A DNA stretch of 64,000 nt from Halobacteria archaeon AArc-dxtr1 (GTDB taxonomy: Archaea; Halobacteriota; Halobacteria; Halobacteriales; Natrialbaceae), in assembly GCA_025517425.1 (NCBI GenBank), contig JAOPJY010000001.1, positions 310,001 to 374,000 on the forward strand. The letters are read 5' to 3'. The notes beneath the pieces were generated by a model. That model did not search any database, was not told the DNA's origin, and saw only the letters and a list, made by a program, of their open reading frames with translations. Every line of letters starts with the position of its first letter. Position 1 is the stretch's first letter. A program made the position numbers and the translations under genes. Positions 712-10,709 of the stretch are shown one piece after another.

Positions 712-2448
712 TTAGTCGTCCGTGCAGCTACAGAGCGTCCCGGCGTCGGCCTCGGCGATCTTGACCCCGTCGTAGAACAGGGACACCGGCTTGAGCGTCT
801 TCTTGAAGTCGACGGTGAAGCCTCGCTTCGTCTCGGCAGGGACGGTGACCTTCCCACCCTCTTTGTTGTTTTTCACACTCCAGGAGAGCTTGAGTTTGTG
901 CTCGGTCTCGTTGTACACCGCGTAGGTTACCGTCTTCCCACCATCAGTGTTCGTTTCAATTGAGACGGATTTCATCTGCACGCCGTCTTTGACGTCAGAT
1001 TTCTTCTTGTCGTCTTTGTCGTCTTTGTCGTCCTTGTCGTCTTTCTTCTCGTCTTTCGTGAACTGCTTGATCTCGCCGAAGAACGTTCCGTCGTTCGCTG
1101 TGACGACTGCACGGAACTCGTAGGTGCTACCTCGGTCGAGACCCGACACGGTCTCACTGAACGCACTCATCTCCGTGCGCTGTTGGGGCTCTGTTGCCTC
1201 CCACTCATCAGTGCCTTCCAGACGGTATTGGAAGAAGACGAACACCTCCTCGAAGTCGCCGAGCGTGGTGAGAGAGCCGTTGAGCGTCGCCGTGGACTTG
1301 TTGACGTCGGTCGGCTTTTTCGTTTTGACCTTCGGCTCTCGGGGGTCGTCGACCTCCTTAGTAAACGTCTGGATGGCACCCTCGAAGCGCTCGTCGTTTG
1401 CCTCAAGAATCGCGCGGAACTCGTACTCCGTGTCGTCGTCGAGGTCGTCGATCTCGGCGCTGAACGGCCCCGAGGCCGTGAGCGTCTGGGGCTCGGTCGG
1501 CAGCCACTCTTCGGCGCCGATTGCGCGGTACTCGAAGAAGACCGTCACCTCCTCGAAGTCCCCAAGTGAGGTGAGAAAGCCGTTGAGCGTCGCGCTCGAT
1601 TCGTTTACCTCCGTGGCAGGCCGGGTCTCGAAGTCAGGGTCTTCAGGTTCGGTTTTGATGAATCCGAACACGTCACCCGAGACGACGATCTCTTGGTCGT
1701 TACTCCCGCGTGCAACCGCGAAGAACTCGTACTCGGTGTCGAGATCCAGGTCGGTGAGGGTTTCGCTGAATGGGCCGGGTGCCCCCAGTGTCTGTGGCTC
1801 CGTTTCCTGGAACTCGTCGGTTCCGACCGCTCGCCAGCGGAAGAAGACCTCGACGGAGCCGAAGCCGCCGAGGTCGAGCAGGTTGCCCTGCAGCGTTGCG
1901 CTCCCCTCGTTGACTGCGGTCGCGTCGAGGGTGATGACGTCGAGAGCCGGCCGTTCGCCGTCGTCGTCGACGCAGGCTCCTTCACTGATGGTGAGAATTG
2001 GGTTCCCGCCGCCACCGCTGAACGTGACGCTGGCGTCAGTGACCGTTCCACCGCCCTCCTTGTAGACGAAGAACTGGACCGCACCGGAGCCACCAGGCCG
2101 TAGCTCCCCCTCGACATCCTCGATCACTGTTCCGTCCTCGAACTCGACCGTGAGCGTCGGGACGGGATCGGGTGCGATCGAGGGCTGTCCGCCCGGTGTG
2201 AGGATCCACTTCCAGAAGCCGAACTCGTCTTCGGCACAGTCTTGCGTGGCGAACTCGCTTCCCTGTCCGCCCCACTCCAGCGTTCGCTGGTTTGGGTTTG
2301 ACGACGGGTTTCCGTTGTCGTCGTTACCAGTATCGTCGCCACCGTTGTCGTCGCCACCGTTTTCCGCACTACTCAGGCAGCCAGCTAAGCCGGCACCGAC
2401 TAACCCGCTCGTCGCGATGACGCTTCGTCTGGATGGATTTCGATCCAT
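712..2448 (-). CDS. secreted lipoprotein with three fibronectin-III-like repeats
   Basis: A 578-residue exported protein. The N-terminus has twin arginines at residues 7-8, a hydrophobic stretch and a lipobox ending at Cys24 (GLAGC), so Tat export and lipid anchoring are likely. A short Asp/Asn/Gly stalk follows. Residues about 50-165 form a first domain with paired cysteines. Three homologous units of about 95 residues follow (roughly 170-455); each opens with a motif like VNESSATLNG, continues with FFxYRxxGxxEW, and ends with LDxxTEYEFRA, the pattern of fibronectin type III. A Lys/Asp linker (repeated KDD) then leads to a C-terminal beta-rich domain with CSC near the end. The same linker type occurs in the surface protein at 4491-6311. 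Probably a surface adhesion or scaffold protein; ligand unknown. Confidence 0.85.
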   Translation of the reverse strand: MDRNPSRRSVIATSGLVGAGLAGCLSSAENGGDDNGGDDTGNDDNGNPSSNPNQRTLEWGGQGSEFATQDCAEDEFGFWKWILTPGGQPSIAPDPVPTLTVEFEDGTVIEDVEGELRPGGSGAVQFFVYKEGGGTVTDASVTFSGGGGNPILTISEGACVDDDGERPALDVITLDATAVNEGSATLQGNLLDLGGFGSVEVFFRWRAVGTDEFQETEPQTLGAPGPFSETLTDLDLDTEYEFFAVARGSNDQEIVVSGDVFGFIKTEPEDPDFETRPATEVNESSATLNGFLTSLGDFEEVTVFFEYRAIGAEEWLPTEPQTLTASGPFSAEIDDLDDDTEYEFRAILEANDERFEGAIQTFTKEVDDPREPKVKTKKPTDVNKSTATLNGSLTTLGDFEEVFVFFQYRLEGTDEWEATEPQQRTEMSAFSETVSGLDRGSTYEFRAVVTANDGTFFGEIKQFTKDEKKDDKDDKDDKDDKKKSDVKDGVQMKSVSIETNTDGGKTVTYAVYNETEHKLKLSWSVKNNKEGGKVTVPAETKRGFTVDFKKTLKPVSLFYDGVKIAEADAGTLCSCTDD

Positions 2449-2816
2449 GGACGAGTGTCTACCAATATGGTATATTGTTTATCACTGTGTACCCAGTAGC
2501 GATGGTTCGTCATTTTGTTCACCTCTTCTGAACGAAAATGTAGCACAACCGTTCTGAGAATGGCGATCAGTTACCAGGTGCCTTCACCGCCATCGATCAT
2601 CTCGGGTCGCTGTGCGATTTTCCTCGGTGTGGAGGGTTGGAATCGGGAGATACGCTCTGAGGTCACCGGTGAAGCACTCTCGGGATTGGTACGACGTCGA
2701 TACTCACCAGTAGTGACAACATACTCAAACTAGTGATCGTCATCGTCTGCCACAGGTTACTCCTCGAAACGAAACCGGGAGGTGTCGGCCGTGGGGTGCC
2801 ATCAAATCCAAGATCC
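2449..2816. other. divergent intergenic region of two surface-protein genes
   Basis: A 368-base spacer between the divergent starts of the lipoprotein gene and the anchored protein gene. It is more A+T-rich than its surroundings. An AT-rich stretch at about 2465-2486 lies 20-38 bases before the minus-strand start and can hold its TATA element. A near-palindrome with a one-base bulge lies at about 2511-2540 (arms cattttgttc and gaacgaaaatg). No convincing gene was found. Confidence 0.5.
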
Positions 2817-3863
2817 ATGATGACTCGACGATTCGAACCTGAACGTCCCGTGGTGTCGATACTCGGTCTCAGTATGTTGCTCTGTGCCCTTGCCGTCGCC
2901 GTCGTCGCCAGCTCGGCAGCGATTCCGGTGATGGGGGCAGTGGCCGAATCCGACGAGATCTCCGAAGAACCGTTCCTCGAACCGGTCCCCGACGCCGACG
3001 ACGACTATTTCGAGGCCGAAGCGAGTGACGGAAGCTGGATCAGCTACGTCAATCCGCGAGACGAGTACCGAAGTCCGTATCTGGGAGAGGGATCGGGGAA
3101 GATCTGCGTCACTCTGGTGAACGAAGCCGGCGAGCCCGTAGTCGGTGAGAGCGTCTCCGAGACGACAGTCACGATCCCGACGGGTGACTCGCTGGTCTGG
3201 CACACCGGTGCCGATCCACTGACCGTCCAGTATCCACTGACCGACCACTACGACCGGCCGCTTGATGCCGACCAGTTCGGCACGACCGACGAGTTACCCC
3301 AGGGCGACGGCTACCTGGACAGTCACTGCATCGAGTTCCACGGGCTCCCCGAGGATGGTGAGATCGAGTACGGTGAAGTGATGGTCGACGGTGCCCACGC
3401 CGACCGGATCGAACTCGCGGGCTACATCCAGCAAGACGACCAGGCTTGGGAGACGGACGTTGACCCGATAGCAGATGCCGTCTCCTACGAGGAAGCCGGC
3501 GGCGGCTGGACGTATTCGGAGCCGGAATCACACGGCCAAGTCGTTGCCGTCTTACAGCTCACAGCCGACGATTCCGACGGCGACTCAGCTGATGGCGCGG
3601 ACGATACTGGTGACGATGCAGACGACGCCGCTAGCGACGATGCCACTGCTGGCCCGAGTGACGACGCCGGCGACGCTGCTGACGGTGCCGAAAGCGACGA
3701 CCCCGAGAATCACGGTGATGACGATCGCACCGACTCGGTCGAGCAGGCTGCGGGAGGTGACGATCCAAACGACGACGACACGCTGGCTGGCTTTGCGACG
3801 GTTCTCGTCCTCCTCGCGACTGCTGTGGGCGCCGGGGTGTGGTATACGACGAGCCGAGAGTAA
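2817..3863 (+). CDS. secreted, C-terminally anchored acidic surface protein
   Basis: The frame opens at 2733, but the ATG pair at 2817/2820 is chosen because it places a short basic segment (MMTRRFEPERP) directly before a hydrophobic signal or anchor helix; this gives 348 residues. The ectodomain (about residues 45-245) is acidic, has an ordered look and one cysteine pair (ICVTL and SHCIEF), and contains no motif I can name. An Asp/Ala/Gly/Ser-rich stalk of about 75 residues leads to a C-terminal membrane helix (LAGFATVLVLLATAVGAGVW) followed by a short tail with one Arg. This is the layout of haloarchaeal C-terminally anchored surface glycoproteins, but the PGF tripeptide of archaeosortase substrates is absent. 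Function unknown. Confidence 0.75.
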   Translation: MMTRRFEPERPVVSILGLSMLLCALAVAVVASSAAIPVMGAVAESDEISEEPFLEPVPDADDDYFEAEASDGSWISYVNPRDEYRSPYLGEGSGKICVTLVNEAGEPVVGESVSETTVTIPTGDSLVWHTGADPLTVQYPLTDHYDRPLDADQFGTTDELPQGDGYLDSHCIEFHGLPEDGEIEYGEVMVDGAHADRIELAGYIQQDDQAWETDVDPIADAVSYEEAGGGWTYSEPESHGQVVAVLQLTADDSDGDSADGADDTGDDADDAASDDATAGPSDDAGDAADGAESDDPENHGDDDRTDSVEQAAGGDDPNDDDTLAGFATVLVLLATAVGAGVWYTTSRE

Positions 3864-4490: not shown

Positions 4491-6311
4491 TTAGAGCTGC
4501 TCGCGAGCCGCTAACAGTGCGGCACCGAGCATCGCAGTGATCGCGACGGCGATGCCGAATCCGGGCGCCTCGTCGTCGTCGTCATCGCCATCGTCATCGT
4601 CGTCGGCGTCGATGTCGGCGTCGTCATCATCCTTCTTGTCGCCCTTCTTGTCGTCCTTGTCTTTCTTATCGTCCTTCTTGTCGTCCTTCTTGTCGTCCTT
4701 GTCTTTCTTATCGTCCTTCTTGTCGTCCTTCTTGTCGTCTTTATCGCCAATGATACTGGTCGACTCGCTGGAGTCGATCTGAACGTGTTCATTTTCCTGC
4801 ATCGTCAGCTGCACCGCGGAGGCATCACCATCATCGTCGGAGATAGCGAGGGCCGTATCGGACGCCGCGTTCAGCTGAGTGACGTTCTGAACCTGTTCGA
4901 GCTCCGCCGTCGTGTACTGGTCGACGACGTTGAGTTCGTCGTTACTTCCGTCGTAGTCGAAGGCGACGCGATCGACGCCCTCGACATCGTCACCGCCGAC
5001 GACGACGCCGGTGGTCTCGGTCAGGACGTATCCTTTGTACTCCTCACCGGCGTCGTATTTACTGTCACCGTCGGTATCTTTCGTGGCCTCCTCTAAGAAG
5101 ACGTTGAGGGCGTCTGCGGAGCCAACCTGCGCGTTGATGTTTTGCTGGAAGGTCATCTGGACCGCTTCGGCCGAGCTACCGTTCGTCCCGACTGCAACCG
5201 CCGAGCTGTTGGTGTTGATGTTTACTTGCTCGACGCTCTGGTACTGTGTGACGCTCGCCTGGGCGACCTGATCGGTGCTATCGTCCTTCTTGTCGTTCTT
5301 GTCGTTCTTGTCGTTCTTGTCGTCGTCCTCAATTTCGACGCCGTCGGTATCGACAATATCGCTACTGGCATCCACACCGGCGGTGGCGACGTTCATGCCT
5401 GCTGACTGCATCATGACGTTGATCGCCTCGGCCGTTCCGAGCTGCTCGTTCAGGTTGGTCTGGTCAGAGATCTGGAGCGCAGTGGCACTCGAGTTCTCGC
5501 CGACTGCGACAGCGATGGCGCTGTTCTGTTCAGCGACGTTCTCCTGACCGACGGTTTGTACCTGCTCGACATCGCCATCGGTCTGTGCGGACAGGGTGGT
5601 CGCCTTCTTGTCGTTCTTGTCTTTCGAATCGTCCCCGTCTTCGACGTAGGCGTTCGAGGTGGTCGCCGACGCCTCCTGGAGGTTCAGGTTAGACTGTTCG
5701 GTGAGCTGAATCGCGGTCGCGTCGCTCTCGTTCTCCGCGAGTGCGAACGCAGTCGTCTCTTCGTTGACGTTAGCCTGTTCGACCTCCTGAGTCTGAGAGA
5801 CCGACGCTTCGGCGGTCTGCGTGACCGTCGCGTCGCCGTCGTCAACGGCTGACCAGCCGTCGTACGTCTGGCCGTCACCCATGATCATGTAGACGTCACC
5901 GACGTCCTCGATGTTCGTCTCGTGATCGATCTGTTGGTTCGTGGCTGTAGCCTCACCAATCTGCTCGTTGGTGTTGTACTGGGTTACTTCCTGAATCGCA
6001 GTTGCCTCACCGCCACCGATGGCGATCGAGATGGCCTGGCCATGTTCGTGGATGTTCACCTGCCCAACGTCTTCGTACTGGATCACCTCGCTGTCGGTCT
6101 CACCGTTCGCGTGCGCCTCGACGTGTTCCTCTAGGGATTGATCGTCGAGATCCGCACCGAAGGATATGTACAGGTCTTCGTCGTTTTCGAGCGTTTCCAC
6201 CGTCTGCGTGGCCCCATCGTCGGCAATAGCTGCTGGCCCGGCAATCGCCACCATCGAAAGCGCGACCATACAGGCTAGCAACACTGCCGCAGTGCGTGAT
6301 TGTACTGACAT
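4491..6311 (-). CDS. PGF-CTERM surface protein with Q/N-ladder repeats
   Basis: A 606-residue exported protein. Residues 1-30 form a signal peptide (hydrophobic core 8-29, AIADD at the end). The C-terminus has an Asp-rich run, the tripeptide PGF, a membrane helix and a terminal Arg-containing tail: the PGF-CTERM signal processed by archaeosortase A. Between them are five units at about 78-127, 171-218, 249-298, 355-404 and 472-519. Each has a QxxVxQxN motif and, 26-29 residues later, a motif A-[ILV]-Q-x3-Q-x-N. Units are joined by linkers, three of them rich in Lys/Asp/Asn (226-237, 328-344 and after 522). Potential N-glycosylation sequons such as NSS and NGS occur. The regular Gln/Asn spacing suggests a stacked beta structure; a curli-like or beta-solenoid role is inference. 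Confidence 0.85.
   Translation of the reverse strand: MSVQSRTAAVLLACMVALSMVAIAGPAAIADDGATQTVETLENDEDLYISFGADLDDQSLEEHVEAHANGETDSEVIQYEDVGQVNIHEHGQAISIAIGGGEATAIQEVTQYNTNEQIGEATATNQQIDHETNIEDVGDVYMIMGDGQTYDGWSAVDDGDATVTQTAEASVSQTQEVEQANVNEETTAFALAENESDATAIQLTEQSNLNLQEASATTSNAYVEDGDDSKDKNDKKATTLSAQTDGDVEQVQTVGQENVAEQNSAIAVAVGENSSATALQISDQTNLNEQLGTAEAINVMMQSAGMNVATAGVDASSDIVDTDGVEIEDDDKNDKNDKNDKKDDSTDQVAQASVTQYQSVEQVNINTNSSAVAVGTNGSSAEAVQMTFQQNINAQVGSADALNVFLEEATKDTDGDSKYDAGEEYKGYVLTETTGVVVGGDDVEGVDRVAFDYDGSNDELNVVDQYTTAELEQVQNVTQLNAASDTALAISDDDGDASAVQLTMQENEHVQIDSSESTSIIGDKDDKKDDKKDDKKDKDDKKDDKKDDKKDKDDKKGDKKDDDDADIDADDDDDGDDDDDEAPGFGIAVAITAMLGAALLAAREQL
4650..4733 (-). repeat. exact 42-bp tandem duplication coding a Lys/Asp linker
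   Basis: Two contiguous identical 42-base copies (4650-4691 and 4692-4733), each built of shorter gtcgtcctt-like units. They lie in frame inside the PGF-CTERM gene and encode the Lys/Asp stalk before the C-terminal anchor. A related array of shorter units encodes the Lys/Asp linker of the lipoprotein at about 1009-1056. Slippage or unequal crossing-over is the likely origin. Confidence 0.8.
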
Positions 6312-6846
6312 TGGAATAGTTCTGGATTGGGTTCTGAAGTCCGTGAGAGTCGCTTCTCGTTGTGTCTCTCGGACTCGGACCAGTCTCTCTCGAAGACATG
6401 CTTTGTTATCTGGCCAATTACCGCGAGAAGAAGATAGCTACCGTCATTGGTGGGCTGAGACGTGTTTTTCGAACGGACAGCGTTGCGGAAGATAGGACAG
6501 TCGTGCAACCCAGTGATACGCCGCTTCGAACCCATCACGAGAGACGGCAATCTGGAACCGAATTATGAGTGGTATACCAACACCTATGCGATCAGTACTG
6601 TTTCGCGTATCTAACACGGCAATAGCTGTGACCGAGCCAATCGTCTCGTTCTCTTTCCAGGCTGGTACCGGTTTCTTTCGATTGAATTTCTTTGATTCGT
6701 GGCCGACGATGTCACTGTTTCAGCGTTCATCGCTTCACGCGTCTATCCGATCCTCGCACCGCGATTTCGACAACGCGTTAGAACTCTATTGCCGGCGAAG
6801 CGGTTTGGCCGGTTGATCATGTACTCCCGTGTCTGTCGACCAGCCG
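6312..6846. other. upstream region of the Q/N-ladder surface protein
   Basis: A 535-base region, less GC-rich than the coding DNA around it, between the start of the PGF-CTERM gene and the 3' end of larC. It should hold the promoter of the surface-protein gene, but I could not pick a single convincing TATA element. Short frames such as 6565-6816 have no recognisable features and are not called. Confidence 0.4.
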
Positions 6847-8205
6847 CTACTCGCCTGTCGACCCGTGTCTGTCTGCGACCGAGCACTCGGCGAGGCGAGC
6901 GATTTCGCGAATCGGTCGGCCGGTCTCTCGGGCAACTGCGGCCGCGTCGTCGTACTCCGTGCTCGCGTCGTAGACTGTCCCCGCTTCGTCACTGGCCACC
7001 TTCACCGAAACCTGGTACTGCCCCTCACCGACCTCGATTTTGACCGTCTCGAACGTTCGCTCTGCGACCCACCGGTGTGTCACGCCCGCATCCCGGACGC
7101 CGAGCGTACCGGTCTCCTCGGCCAGTCGCCGAGCCACGCGCTCTCGGTCTGCGGGTCGACAGATCACCTTCACCAGGTGGCCGGGACGGGACTTCTTCAT
7201 CGTCGCCGGGAGTACCGAAACGTCTCGCGCGCCCGCGTTGGCGAGTGTCTCTTGGAGTCCGCCGAGTATCTCCGGGGGGACGTCGTCGACGTTCGTCTCG
7301 AGCACTGCGATCTCCTCTCTGGCGAGGCCGCCCTCAGCCTCCCCCACGACCGCCCGGAGGACGTTCGGATGCGGGTCGAGGTCGTAGCCGCCCGCGCCGT
7401 AGCCGACCGCATCGACCGAGAGCGCCGGGAGAGAGTCGACGCCCTCGGCGACGTGACCCAGGATCGCCGCCCCGGTCGGCGTCAGCAGCTCCCGATCGAC
7501 GGGGCCACCTCGAAGCGACCAGTCTGCCCGCGTCGCGATCTCGACGACGGCGGGCCCGGGAACGGGATACTCACCATGACTCATCGAGACGGAGCCACCG
7601 CCACCCGCGATCGGCGTCGTGATGACGCGATCAGGGTCGAGGTCAGCCAATAGCAACGCCGCGCCGACCACGTCCGCGATCGCGTCGTCTGCGCCGACCT
7701 CGTGGAAGTGGATCGACTCGATATCCTCGCCGTGGACGCTCGCCTCGGCCGCTCCGAGTAACTCGAATATTGAGAGCGCGTCGCGCTCGGCATCGGCTGG
7801 GAGCTCCATCCCGCGAACAACCTCGCGGACTTCGCGGTAGCTGCGGTGGGGACCGTGTCCCTCCGCAGGGACGTGGTCCTCGTCTCTCCCAGCATCGTGG
7901 TGGGTGTCGCTGTGCTCGTGGTGGGTGTCGCTGTGCTCGTGGTGGGTGTCGCTGTGCTCGTGGTGGGTGTCGCTGTGCTCGTGGTGGTCGTTACCCTCCT
8001 CGGTGGAGTCGTGCTCACCCGTCAGAACTACGTCGACCGTCGTCGCCGCGATTCCGCACGTGGTCGTGTTCTCAACTCGATACTCGAGACCGAGGGCCTC
8101 CTCCACTGGGACGAGCGTGCTACGGTCGGCACCAGCCGCCAGCAGGGTGGCGAGAATCATGTCGCCGCTGGCGCCCGTACGGCCATCGAAGGCGAGAACT
8201 GTCAT
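6847..8205 (-). CDS. larC: LarC-type nickel chelatase
   Basis: LarC inserts nickel into the pyridinium-bisthiocarboxylate nucleotide to make the nickel-pincer cofactor of lactate racemase and related enzymes. The start at 8205 is chosen because the family's typical N-terminus follows at once (MTVLAFDGRTGASGDMILATLL); the open frame upstream is untypical. The middle carries a His-rich segment made of exact HSDTHHE repeats, a likely nickel-binding loop, followed by the conserved SIHFHEVGADDAIADVVGA region. The C-terminal half has LETNVDDVPPEILG and the Lys-Lys-Ser-Arg-Pro-Gly segment typical of LarC. The product is 452 residues. No larB or larE gene lies nearby, so its client enzyme is unknown. 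It is divergent from cdc48. Confidence 0.9.
   Translation of the reverse strand: MTVLAFDGRTGASGDMILATLLAAGADRSTLVPVEEALGLEYRVENTTTCGIAATTVDVVLTGEHDSTEEGNDHHEHSDTHHEHSDTHHEHSDTHHEHSDTHHDAGRDEDHVPAEGHGPHRSYREVREVVRGMELPADAERDALSIFELLGAAEASVHGEDIESIHFHEVGADDAIADVVGAALLLADLDPDRVITTPIAGGGGSVSMSHGEYPVPGPAVVEIATRADWSLRGGPVDRELLTPTGAAILGHVAEGVDSLPALSVDAVGYGAGGYDLDPHPNVLRAVVGEAEGGLAREEIAVLETNVDDVPPEILGGLQETLANAGARDVSVLPATMKKSRPGHLVKVICRPADRERVARRLAEETGTLGVRDAGVTHRWVAERTFETVKIEVGEGQYQVSVKVASDEAGTVYDASTEYDDAAAVARETGRPIREIARLAECSVADRHGSTGE
7900..7983 (-). repeat. four exact 21-bp repeats coding His-rich heptapeptides
   Basis: Four contiguous identical copies of a 21-base unit (7900-7920, 7921-7941, 7942-7962, 7963-7983). 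In the larC frame each encodes a His/Glu/Ser/Asp/Thr heptapeptide, giving the His-rich loop of LarC. There are no spacers, so this is a coding microsatellite and not a CRISPR array. Confidence 0.9.
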
Positions 8206-8477: not shown

Positions 8478-10709
8478 ATGAACGAAGTCCAACTGGAAGT
8501 CGCGAAAGCGTACCCGAACGACTCGGGTCGTGGTATTGCCCGGCTCGACCCGGATACGCTGTTGCATCTGAAGCTGAGTCCGGGTGACATCATCGAGATC
8601 GAAGGCGCCGACACCACCGCTGCGAAGGTGTGGCGTGCAGACCGACAGGACTGGAACACAGACACTGTCCGCATCGACGGGTTCACCCGTCAGAACGCCG
8701 ACGTGGGAATCGGCGAGCGGGTGACGATCCGCAAAGCCGAGGCGACGAAAGCAGACAGCTTAGTCCTCGCGCCGCCGGAAGAGGCGTCGGTGCAGTTCGG
8801 CTCGGACGCCGCCGGGATGGTCAAACGCCAGATCTTGAAGCGCCCGGTCGTCGGACGGGACATCGTCCCGGTCATGTCCTCGACGAACCACCCATTCATG
8901 CGCTCGCCCGGCCAAGCGATCCCGCTGATCGCCGTCGAGACCGAGCCCGAGGGCGTCGTTCTCATCACCGAGGACACCGACGTCGAACTCCGCGAAGAGC
9001 CAATCTCGGGCTTCGAGAAGACCGGTGGTGGGATCACCTACGAGGATATCGGCGGTCTCCAGGGTGAGATCCAGCGCGTCCGCGAGATGGTCGAACTGCC
9101 GATGAAACACCCCCAGATCTTCAAGAAACTGGGGATCGAGCCGCCACAGGGCGTCCTGTTGCACGGGCCGCCCGGCACGGGGAAGACGCTGCTCGCGAAG
9201 GCGGTCGCCAACGAGACCTCCGCGAGTTTCTTCTCCATCGCGGGCCCGGAGATCATCTCGAAGTACTACGGCGAGTCCGAACAACAGCTCAGGGAGATCT
9301 TCGAGGACGCCAGTGAGGAGTCCCCGGCTATCATCTTTATCGACGAGTTAGACTCGATCGCACCCAAACGCGAGGACGTCACCGGCGAGGTCGAACGCCG
9401 GGTCGTCGCACAGTTGCTGACGATGATGGACGGACTCGAAGCCCGCGGCCAGGTCATCGTCATCGCGGCGACCAACCGGGTCGACAGCGTCGACCCCGCC
9501 CTTCGCCGGCCCGGCCGATTCGACCGGGAAATCGAGATCGGCGTCCCCGACGAGGTCGGCCGCGAGGAGATCCTCCAGATCCACACCCGCGGGATGCCTC
9601 TCTCTGACGACGTCGACCTCTCGCATCTCGCAGACGAGACTCACGGCTTCGTCGGTGCCGACATCGAGAGCCTAACCAAAGAGGCCGCGATGAAGGCCCT
9701 GCGCCGATACCTCCCCGAGATCGATTTAGACGAGGAAGACATCCCGCCGTCCCTGATCGATCGGATGATCGTCAAGCGCGAGGACTTCGGCGGCGCGTTG
9801 AACGAGGTCGAACCCTCGGCGATGCGGGAGGTGTTGGTCGAACTCCCCAAGATCTCCTGGAACGACGTCGGCGGCCTTCACGACGCCAAAGAGCAGGTCC
9901 AGGAGGCAGTCGAGTGGCCGCTCAACACTCCCGAGCGCTTCGACAGGCTCGGCATCGACCCGCCTGCGGGCGTCTTGCTGTACGGCCCGCCCGGCACGGG
10001 GAAGACGCTGATGGCGAAAGCGGTCGCCAACGAGACGAACGCCAACTTCATCTCGGTGCGCGGTCCGCAACTGCTCTCGAAATGGGTCGGCGAATCGGAG
10101 AAGGCGATCCGTCAGACGTTCCGGAAGGCCCGGCAGGTCTCCCCGACGGTGATCTTCTTCGACGAACTGGACGCGCTCGCCCCCGGTCGTGGTGGCGAGG
10201 TTGGCAGCAACGTCTCCGAACGAGTCGTCAACCAGCTGCTGACCGAACTCGACGGGTTAGAGGAGATGGGCAACGTGATGGTCATCGGTGCGACCAACCG
10301 CCCGGACATGATCGACCCCGCGCTGCTGCGCTCGGGTCGGTTCGACCGCCTCGTCATGATTGGTGAGCCCGACATCGACGGCCGCGAGCGCATCCTCGAC
10401 ATCCACACCCAGGATACGCCGCTGGCCCCCGACGTCAGCCTCCGTGAGATTGCCGAGATCACTGACGGCTACGTCGGCTCCGACCTCGAGTCGATCGGTC
10501 GCGAGGCCGCCATCGAAGCGCTTCGTGAAGATCCCGAGGCAGACGTCGTCGAAATGCGTCACTTCCGGGCCGCAATGGAGAACGTCCGGCCGACGATCAC
10601 CGACGACATCTTAGAGTACTACGAACGCATCGAGGAGGAGTTTACCGGTGGGTCGGCGATGACCGAGCCCGGAACCGGCCGCCGGGGCAGCCGCATCGGA
10701 TTCCAGTAG
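8478..10709 (+). CDS. cdc48: Cdc48/VAT AAA+ ATPase
   Basis: A 743-residue type II AAA+ ATPase, the archaeal p97/VAT unfoldase that prepares proteins for the proteasome. The ATG at 8478 starts the family-typical [20 protein letters not shown]; the in-frame ATG at 8388 would add a basic, untypical stretch. The N-domain (about 1-185) has the double-psi barrel pattern (GDIIEIEG). D1 has Walker A GPPGTGKT near 229-236 and Walker [12 protein letters not shown]2 has a second GPPGTGKT near 503-510 and [10 protein letters not shown]. Arginine-finger regions ([17 protein letters not shown] and the D2 equivalent) are present, so both rings should be active. It is monocistronic and divergent from larC. 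Family assignment is firm. Confidence 0.97.

Follow-up and report, generated by a model that had tools for sequence, protein, structure and literature searches.

The window analysed here is a stretch of 64,000 nucleotides from the genome of Halobacteria archaeon AArc-dxtr1 (Natrialbaceae; contig JAOPJY010000001.1, positions 310,001 to 374,000), and coordinates given below are those of the window unless a locus is named. Its minus strand encodes a surface protein of 606 residues in which five related units, called ladder units here, lie between a signal peptide and a C-terminal sorting signal. The gene and its upstream element comprise the following features:

4491-6311, minus strand: open reading frame of the 606-residue surface protein, including the stop codon (4491-4493); homologues share 45-60% identity with it along most of the sequence
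6401-6410, minus strand: strongly conserved element GATAACAAAG, located 99 bases upstream of the start codon here and at -85 to -99 in most homologous genes
6222-6311, minus strand: Sec-type signal peptide, about residues 1-30 (MSVQSRTAAVLLACMVALSMVAIAGPAAIA), read from the sequence by eye and kept in most homologues
6102-6179, minus strand: N-terminal segment before unit 1, residues 45-70 (DLYLxFGADLxDxSLEE; LENDEDLYISFGADLDDQSLEE), recognised by its conservation
5931-6107, minus strand: ladder unit 1 (unit profile E 5.7e-19)
5841-5909, minus strand: insert between units 1 and 2, residues 135-157, with G145, G152 and W153 invariant and a low pLDDT
5640-5828, minus strand: ladder unit 2 (unit profile E 4.5e-22; predicted strands with pLDDT 73-90)
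5406-5594, minus strand: ladder unit 3 (unit profile E 1.2e-20; predicted strands with pLDDT mostly 84-92)
5091-5279, minus strand: ladder unit 4 (unit profile E 7.3e-23; predicted strands with pLDDT 70-91)
4746-4925, minus strand: ladder unit 5 (unit profile E 5.3e-19; predicted strands with pLDDT mostly 77-90)
4578-4748, minus strand: Asp/Lys-rich spacer, residues 522-578, with 32 Asp and 19 Lys among 57 residues
4494-4565, minus strand: PGF-CTERM sorting signal, residues 583-606, matched by Pfam and NCBIfam

The sorting signal exceeds the curated cut-off of both collections (Pfam E 6e-6, NCBIfam E 2.4e-9), and this anchor is the only domain of the 606-residue protein that Pfam or NCBIfam matches. 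The host genome (2.8 Mb), in which the ladder gene is single-copy, also encodes an archaeosortase A (profile search, E 1e-94). Judging from these sequence features, the assignment as a secreted, archaeosortase-anchored haloarchaeal surface protein is supported. In the initial annotation, the five paired units were framed by a signal peptide and by a PGF-CTERM anchor attached by archaeosortase, and all of these elements were recovered. In the N-terminal segment, Y48, F51 and G52 are invariant in the homologue alignment and the helix placed there by AF2 is of low confidence; this segment could possibly cap the ladder stack. The insert between units 4 and 5 also holds invariant residues (T431, G440 and D452). 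Since this insert and the one between units 1 and 2 are conserved despite their predicted disorder, they may bind something.

The ladder unit has the consensus QxAxAxVxQxQxVxQxNxNxQxxAxAIAxxxSxATAxQxxxQxNxNxQxGxAxAxN, in which the conserved residues occupy every second position on both sides of a turn. A unit profile built on 40 sequences, including four of the five units of the window protein, gives exactly five matches in this protein, each with E < 1e-18, and zero matches in the rest of the host genome. The first motif of each pair had initially been written as QxxVxQxN and its partner placed 26-29 residues further on. The ladder itself is real, but its spacing should read QxVxQxN, on alternate residues, and the measured distance between paired motifs is 26-28 residues. 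Indeed, the ladder Q-x-Q-x-V-x-Q-x-N-x-N strictly follows an every-second-residue spacing in the 606-residue protein; in unit 1, Glu80 replaces the first Q of the Qx3QxN frame.

This alternation of Gln and Asn is real and far above chance. The protein has nine Qx3QxN motifs, whereas 20,000 shuffles of its sequence gave 0.26 on average and never more than 4. It also has four motif pairs spaced by 26-28 residues, at least one such pair being found in only 9 of the 20,000 shuffles. Furthermore, Gln and Asn show positive autocorrelation at even lags (z up to +4.7) and negative autocorrelation at odd lags (z about -2). Near the motifs, even positions are occupied by Q (31), A (19), N (19) and V (10), and odd positions by E (22), T (14), S (10), V (10), I (9), D (8) and L (8). 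Read as a sequence signature, this composition is that of a beta pattern, with one uncharged face of polar or small residues and one acidic, beta-branched face. The same holds beyond the window: the invariant columns in alignments of 25 and of 49 sequences are mostly the Q and N positions of the ladder, and the spacing within a unit is nearly always 27 or 28 residues in homologues. Linker length, by contrast, varies from 4 to 74 residues, as measured in the 42 sequences whose five units could all be bounded by their motifs.

A search of genome contigs with the single protein retrieved no relative, whereas an alignment used as query retrieved 50 named loci. Clear homologues are present in 99 of 125 Natrialbaceae genomes (about four fifths), the remaining 26 giving only weak matches that mostly reflect low-complexity C-terminal similarity; this split was judged by eye from the match table. 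The named homologues belong to Natrinema, Natrialba, Natronorubrum, Haloterrigena, Natronococcus, Halovivax and others, as well as to Halomicrococcus, labelled Haladaptataceae on the tree. At the level of the class, the unit profile matches 84 of 391 genomes, spread over four families of one order. Most of these 84 genomes show exactly five unit matches per copy, and 10-12 matches per genome were obtained where two copies or further ladder proteins are present. No description of the five-unit ladder proteins was found in the open-licence literature. They form an unannotated and uncharacterised family, mainly from Natrialbaceae.

Three architectures occur in this family. The 606-residue protein combines a Sec signal with a PGF-CTERM anchor, the majority of the named homologues have a Sec signal without anchor, and a third form has a Tat-type signal (RRGYL leader) with, in most members, a Lys-rich tail. 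On the tree, the Tat-type form is a single clade and the anchor has changed several times. The number of these changes is approximate because L056 and L069 are labelled free while their tails are PGLG variants of the sorting signal, and because L065 seems unanchored, possibly owing to an incomplete sequence. Homologues that keep the anchor and lose the Gln/Asn spacing would have spoken against the initial annotation; the reverse was found, the ladder being kept and the anchor lost.

The surroundings of the gene are partly conserved as well. The window encodes a larC-type nickel insertion protein (6850-8205, minus strand) and a CDC48 AAA ATPase (8478-10706, plus strand), and since 27-28 of the 50 named loci also have larC and cdc48 close to the ladder genes, this position is old. 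Both free and anchored large proteins adjoin these two genes. A split by paralogy into anchored nucleators and free subunits, like that of CsgB and CsgA, was considered and dropped, because anchored and free forms occupy one syntenic position and changes of the anchor recur on the tree. On the other side, the ladder gene is adjoined by a gene for a secreted-looking protein (2733-3863, plus strand) that has an acidic stretch, a C-terminal hydrophobic segment and no Pfam match. Further away, 715-2448 (minus strand) encodes a predicted Tat-type lipoprotein whose repeated domains weakly resemble fibronectin type III, the fn3 match (E 1.3e-4) staying under the cut-off. In Natronorubrum bangense (L045/L046) and Natronolimnohabitans (L043), a homologue of this lipoprotein adjoins the ladder cluster.

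In about 35 of the 50 named loci, small secreted ladder proteins are encoded upstream of the large gene and transcribed divergently from it. There are one to four of these small partners per locus, mostly of 105-190 residues and with about one unit each; they had escaped the initial annotation. The unit profile, although derived from large proteins only, recognises many of them (best E 3e-14) and several only weakly; at the sequence level, the homology of their unit to those of the large protein is clear. For example, the small proteins of L042 and L045/L046 hold one complete unit with the 27-residue spacing seen in the large protein. In Natronorubrum bangense, the large protein WP_006067700.1 is accompanied by WP_006067701.1 and WP_006067702.1, and the whole cluster is annotated as hypothetical proteins. 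Some small proteins (L077:6980-7339, minus strand, and its relatives) have the two halves of the unit in reversed order, with about 30 linker residues between them, an arrangement that looks like a circular permutation; such partners might bridge two layers.

Among the matches listed, small partners lying outside the frames of large proteins were found in at least 84 of the 99 genomes that encode the large protein and in 0 of the 26 that lack it. By hand count on these matches, the co-occurrence gives a Fisher p of about 1e-16, a value that ignores shared ancestry. A six-frame search of the host genome with a small-protein profile matched the 606-residue protein (E 5.8e-7). With this profile and the unit profile, it was the only match in that genome and no small partner was detected there. 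A two-component mechanism can thus not be general, and the anchored five-unit protein stands alone in this host. A promoter element common to the large and small genes was also considered and rejected, GATAACAAAG being located upstream of the large gene only. This element, which often lies inside the longer motif CAACYxxxxGATAACAAAGTCTGTCATCxGGATA, is probably a promoter, a regulator site or a leader.

The fold was predicted for residues 35-530 of the 606-residue protein with AF2 and an alignment of 49 sequences (model 1; mean pLDDT 64, pTM 0.54). In this model, units 2-5 each consist of two strands of 25-31 residues joined by a short turn, with block-mean pLDDT mostly 70-92, and most linkers have a pLDDT < 50. 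A distant homologue with short linkers (L083, model 2; pTM 0.58) again gives five units, built of about five strand pieces each as against the two continuous strands of model 1. In both models the units are of the beta-strand-turn-strand type, and their strands mostly have a pLDDT of 75-93.

Searches of solved structures with the family and unit profiles gave chance-level matches only. When model 1 was compared with the PDB by Foldseek, CsgA (8c50) came first (E 2.3), followed by PfbA, UpaB, SufB/D and FapC, none of them significant. For model 2, FapC (9nqd) came first (E 0.49, not significant), with putative adhesins and SufB/D, and FapC 9u4u ranked sixth. Taken together, the matches to FapC have Foldseek E 0.49-3.8 (not significant) and a VIA Z of 3.0. 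VIA-align superposed model 1 on SufD (Z 7.5, 152 residues, 3.1 A) and on CsgA (Z 7.0, 122 residues), both alignments spanning all five units (residues 40-483 of the model); the values for model 2 are low (Z 4 or less). The nearest folds of both models are thus mostly parallel beta-solenoids and functional amyloids, none being significant, and the models make parallel stacking of the ladder units fairly likely. As a VIA Z under 8 can arise by chance, this stacking is likely rather than proven. Of the stacked solenoid proposed in the initial annotation, the five beta units and the solenoid or amyloid-like nearest folds are borne out by prediction, but a high-confidence single continuous solenoid is not (pTM 0.54-0.58, matches not significant).

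The best reading of the five units, the near-invariant ladder, the anchor, the unit homology of the small neighbours and the co-occurrence, all documented above, and of the beta units and stacking predicted by the models, is that the protein would be a beta-solenoid scaffold or nucleator of an extracellular system of FapC/curli type in haloarchaea, its polymerisation being unproven. Each unit of about 60 residues would form one layer, made of two long strands and a tight turn that face each other through Gln, Asn and Ala. The five units would be the successive rungs of a flat parallel beta-solenoid from which the disordered linkers loop out, and equal residues stacked on each other would form side-chain hydrogen-bonded ladders of Gln and Asn, as in FapC and CsgA. 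The exposed end layer could then accept further layers. In relatives, these layers may be supplied by the secreted one-unit neighbours, for which the five-unit protein would act as scaffold or nucleator, and a fibre could form by layer addition. A repeat that is predicted to stack, together with one-repeat partners encoded next door, suggests such an archaeal extracellular fibre of functional-amyloid type. In the anchored form, the Asp/Lys-rich spacer and the PGF-CTERM signal would hold the protein at the cell surface. In a host that has no small partner, the protein could display a short anchored stack or associate with itself. In its specific form, a stacked solenoid like FapC or CsgA with a layer-accepting end that acts as scaffold or nucleator for the small partners, this reading is tentative and its likelihood is put somewhat below an even chance.

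The strongest rival is a beta-solenoid stalk or adhesin that does not polymerise. The protein would then be a capped, monomeric, rigid spacer or ligand-binder and the small proteins its soluble relatives or ligands. The fixed number of five units per copy is also compatible with a self-contained monomer, the N-terminal segment possibly provides the cap, and the conserved inserts between units 1 and 2 and between units 4 and 5 could bind something. Moreover, the fold matches include solenoids that are not amyloids (SufD, UpaB, PfbA), and no small partner was detected in the host genome. However, near-invariant ladders of Gln and Asn with little hydrophobic core are a trait of functional amyloids rather than of monomeric adhesins (FapC: PMC12392863), co-occurring one-unit relatives in the neighbourhood are hard to explain if the stalk is self-sufficient, and free and anchored forms alternate. 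This rival is rated as rather unlikely.

The units could also be five independent long beta-hairpins, like beads on a string, that pair with other copies or with the small proteins into a gel-like matrix without ordered fibre. The two long strands and short turn of the units in model 1 agree with this, as do linkers of up to 74 residues whose pLDDT is mostly very low. Yet isolated strands are not expected to reach a pLDDT near 90, parallel solenoids that align over all units dominate the results of Foldseek and VIA, and the unit number is conserved at five. Such hairpins are improbable. Finally, an acidic sequence rich in Gln and Asn and followed by a long Asp/Lys-rich spacer might be a low-complexity surface coat of a halophile, its Gln/Asn enrichment being compositional and no fold being selected. 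This explanation is hardly credible: it is already contradicted by the conservation pattern, that is, by strict alternation, by columns that stay invariant in homologues down to 36% identity, by a pair spacing fixed at 27 or 28 and by the fixed unit number.

Returning to the solenoid scaffold or nucleator, its boldest formulation is that of an independently evolved haloarchaeal functional amyloid, in which a five-layer nucleator, optionally anchored by archaeosortase, and secreted one-layer subunits would polymerise extracellularly at near-saturating salt. They would do so by means of a Gln/Asn ladder whose sequence has no relationship to those of curli, Fap or the archaeal sheath proteins. 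This proposal is possible, though doubtful. Biofilms of Haloferax volcanii bind Congo red and thioflavin T (PMC4180959), and no established haloarchaeal amyloid protein was found in the open-licence literature. In the sampled genomes the ladder family was unseen beyond four families of one order, so that the staining of H. volcanii is not directly explained. Nevertheless, the family combines a functional-amyloid architecture, a neighbouring partner gene and an annotation as hypothetical protein (RefSeq record checked), and it makes the question of haloarchaeal amyloid testable in one family with named proteins (e.g., WP_006067700.1 from N. bangense). If it polymerises, this would be a further origin of a Gln/Asn-ladder functional amyloid, at salt levels that screen electrostatics, and a possible source of salt-stable fibres.

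Among known systems, the anchored proteins of the PGF-CTERM type (TIGR04126/PF18204) share with the window protein the signal peptide, the acidic spacer and the sorting signal, along with the archaeosortase A in the genome. In the ladder family, however, the anchor is one of several architectures and most named homologues do without it. The sheath proteins MspA/SH of Methanospirillum and Methanothrix are likewise archaeal, secreted and described as amyloid-like, with imperfect repeats and conserved G, A, N and Q. The SH core is described as two sheets of six antiparallel strands that build cell-enclosing hoops, known from methanogens and ANME (PMC6242892, PMC11576556). Their repeats are of about 80 residues and little conserved, and it is by these published descriptions only that the ladder family is set apart from them.

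Curli (CsgA/CsgB, PF07012, PDB 8c50; PMC3521004) resemble the ladder system by evenly spaced Gln and Asn in beta-arch repeats and by a second protein with a shared repeat encoded nearby. Their repeats of about 20 residues follow end to end, whereas the ladder unit has about 60 residues and is separated by linkers. The initial annotation had stated that the spacing differs from that of curlin, and this was upheld: the curlin motif Q-x-G-x-x-N has 0 occurrences in the 606-residue protein (family mean 0.78), and Curlin_rpt has no match in 25 aligned family members (E up to 10) or in the host genome, the window protein included. Membership of the curlin family was rejected on these grounds. True curlin-repeat proteins do occur in Natrialbaceae, 2 of 61 genomes encoding one above the Curlin_rpt cut-off (L115:1303-2106, minus strand, G027; L116:925-1614, plus strand, G024); the domain matches them in as many as 8 stretches, each about 20 residues long, and their signal peptides are of haloarchaeal type. 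A single archaeal protein with curli-like repeats has been mentioned previously (PMC3521004).

Two motif forms of the FapBC repeat consensus (GNxGxN and gNqQN) have 0 occurrences in all 51 sequences, and membership of FapC by motif was rejected while the architectural likeness was kept. As the motifs of both curlin and FapC are absent, the ladder protein is filed under neither family. Archaea have no outer membrane. The Fap system of Pseudomonas (FapC with FapB; PDB 9u4u, 9nqd) differs by three repeats in FapC as against five units, by its consensus (GNxGxNxaaGxgNqQN vs AxAxVxQxQxVxQxNxNxQ ... SxATAxQxxxQxNxNxQxGxAxA), by a partner with three repeats as against about one in the small ladder partners, and by the membrane anchor that some ladder proteins carry. 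In FapC, each imperfect repeat is one cross-beta layer with conserved inward Asn and Gln, and repeat number and length are fixed while linkers vary (PMC12392863). Both systems are secreted and have a second protein with the shared repeat encoded nearby. They also share conserved Asn and Gln, which point inward in FapC and presumably in the ladder protein, as well as imperfect repeats fixed in number and length and joined by variable disordered linkers, a likeness of architecture that implies no homology. The FapC layers (residues 45-96, 110-161 and 173-234), which stack as Greek-key cross-beta layers, are similar in size to the ladder units. By analogy, it is FapC, with its imperfect repeats and variable linkers, that the ladder protein resembles more closely than curlin.
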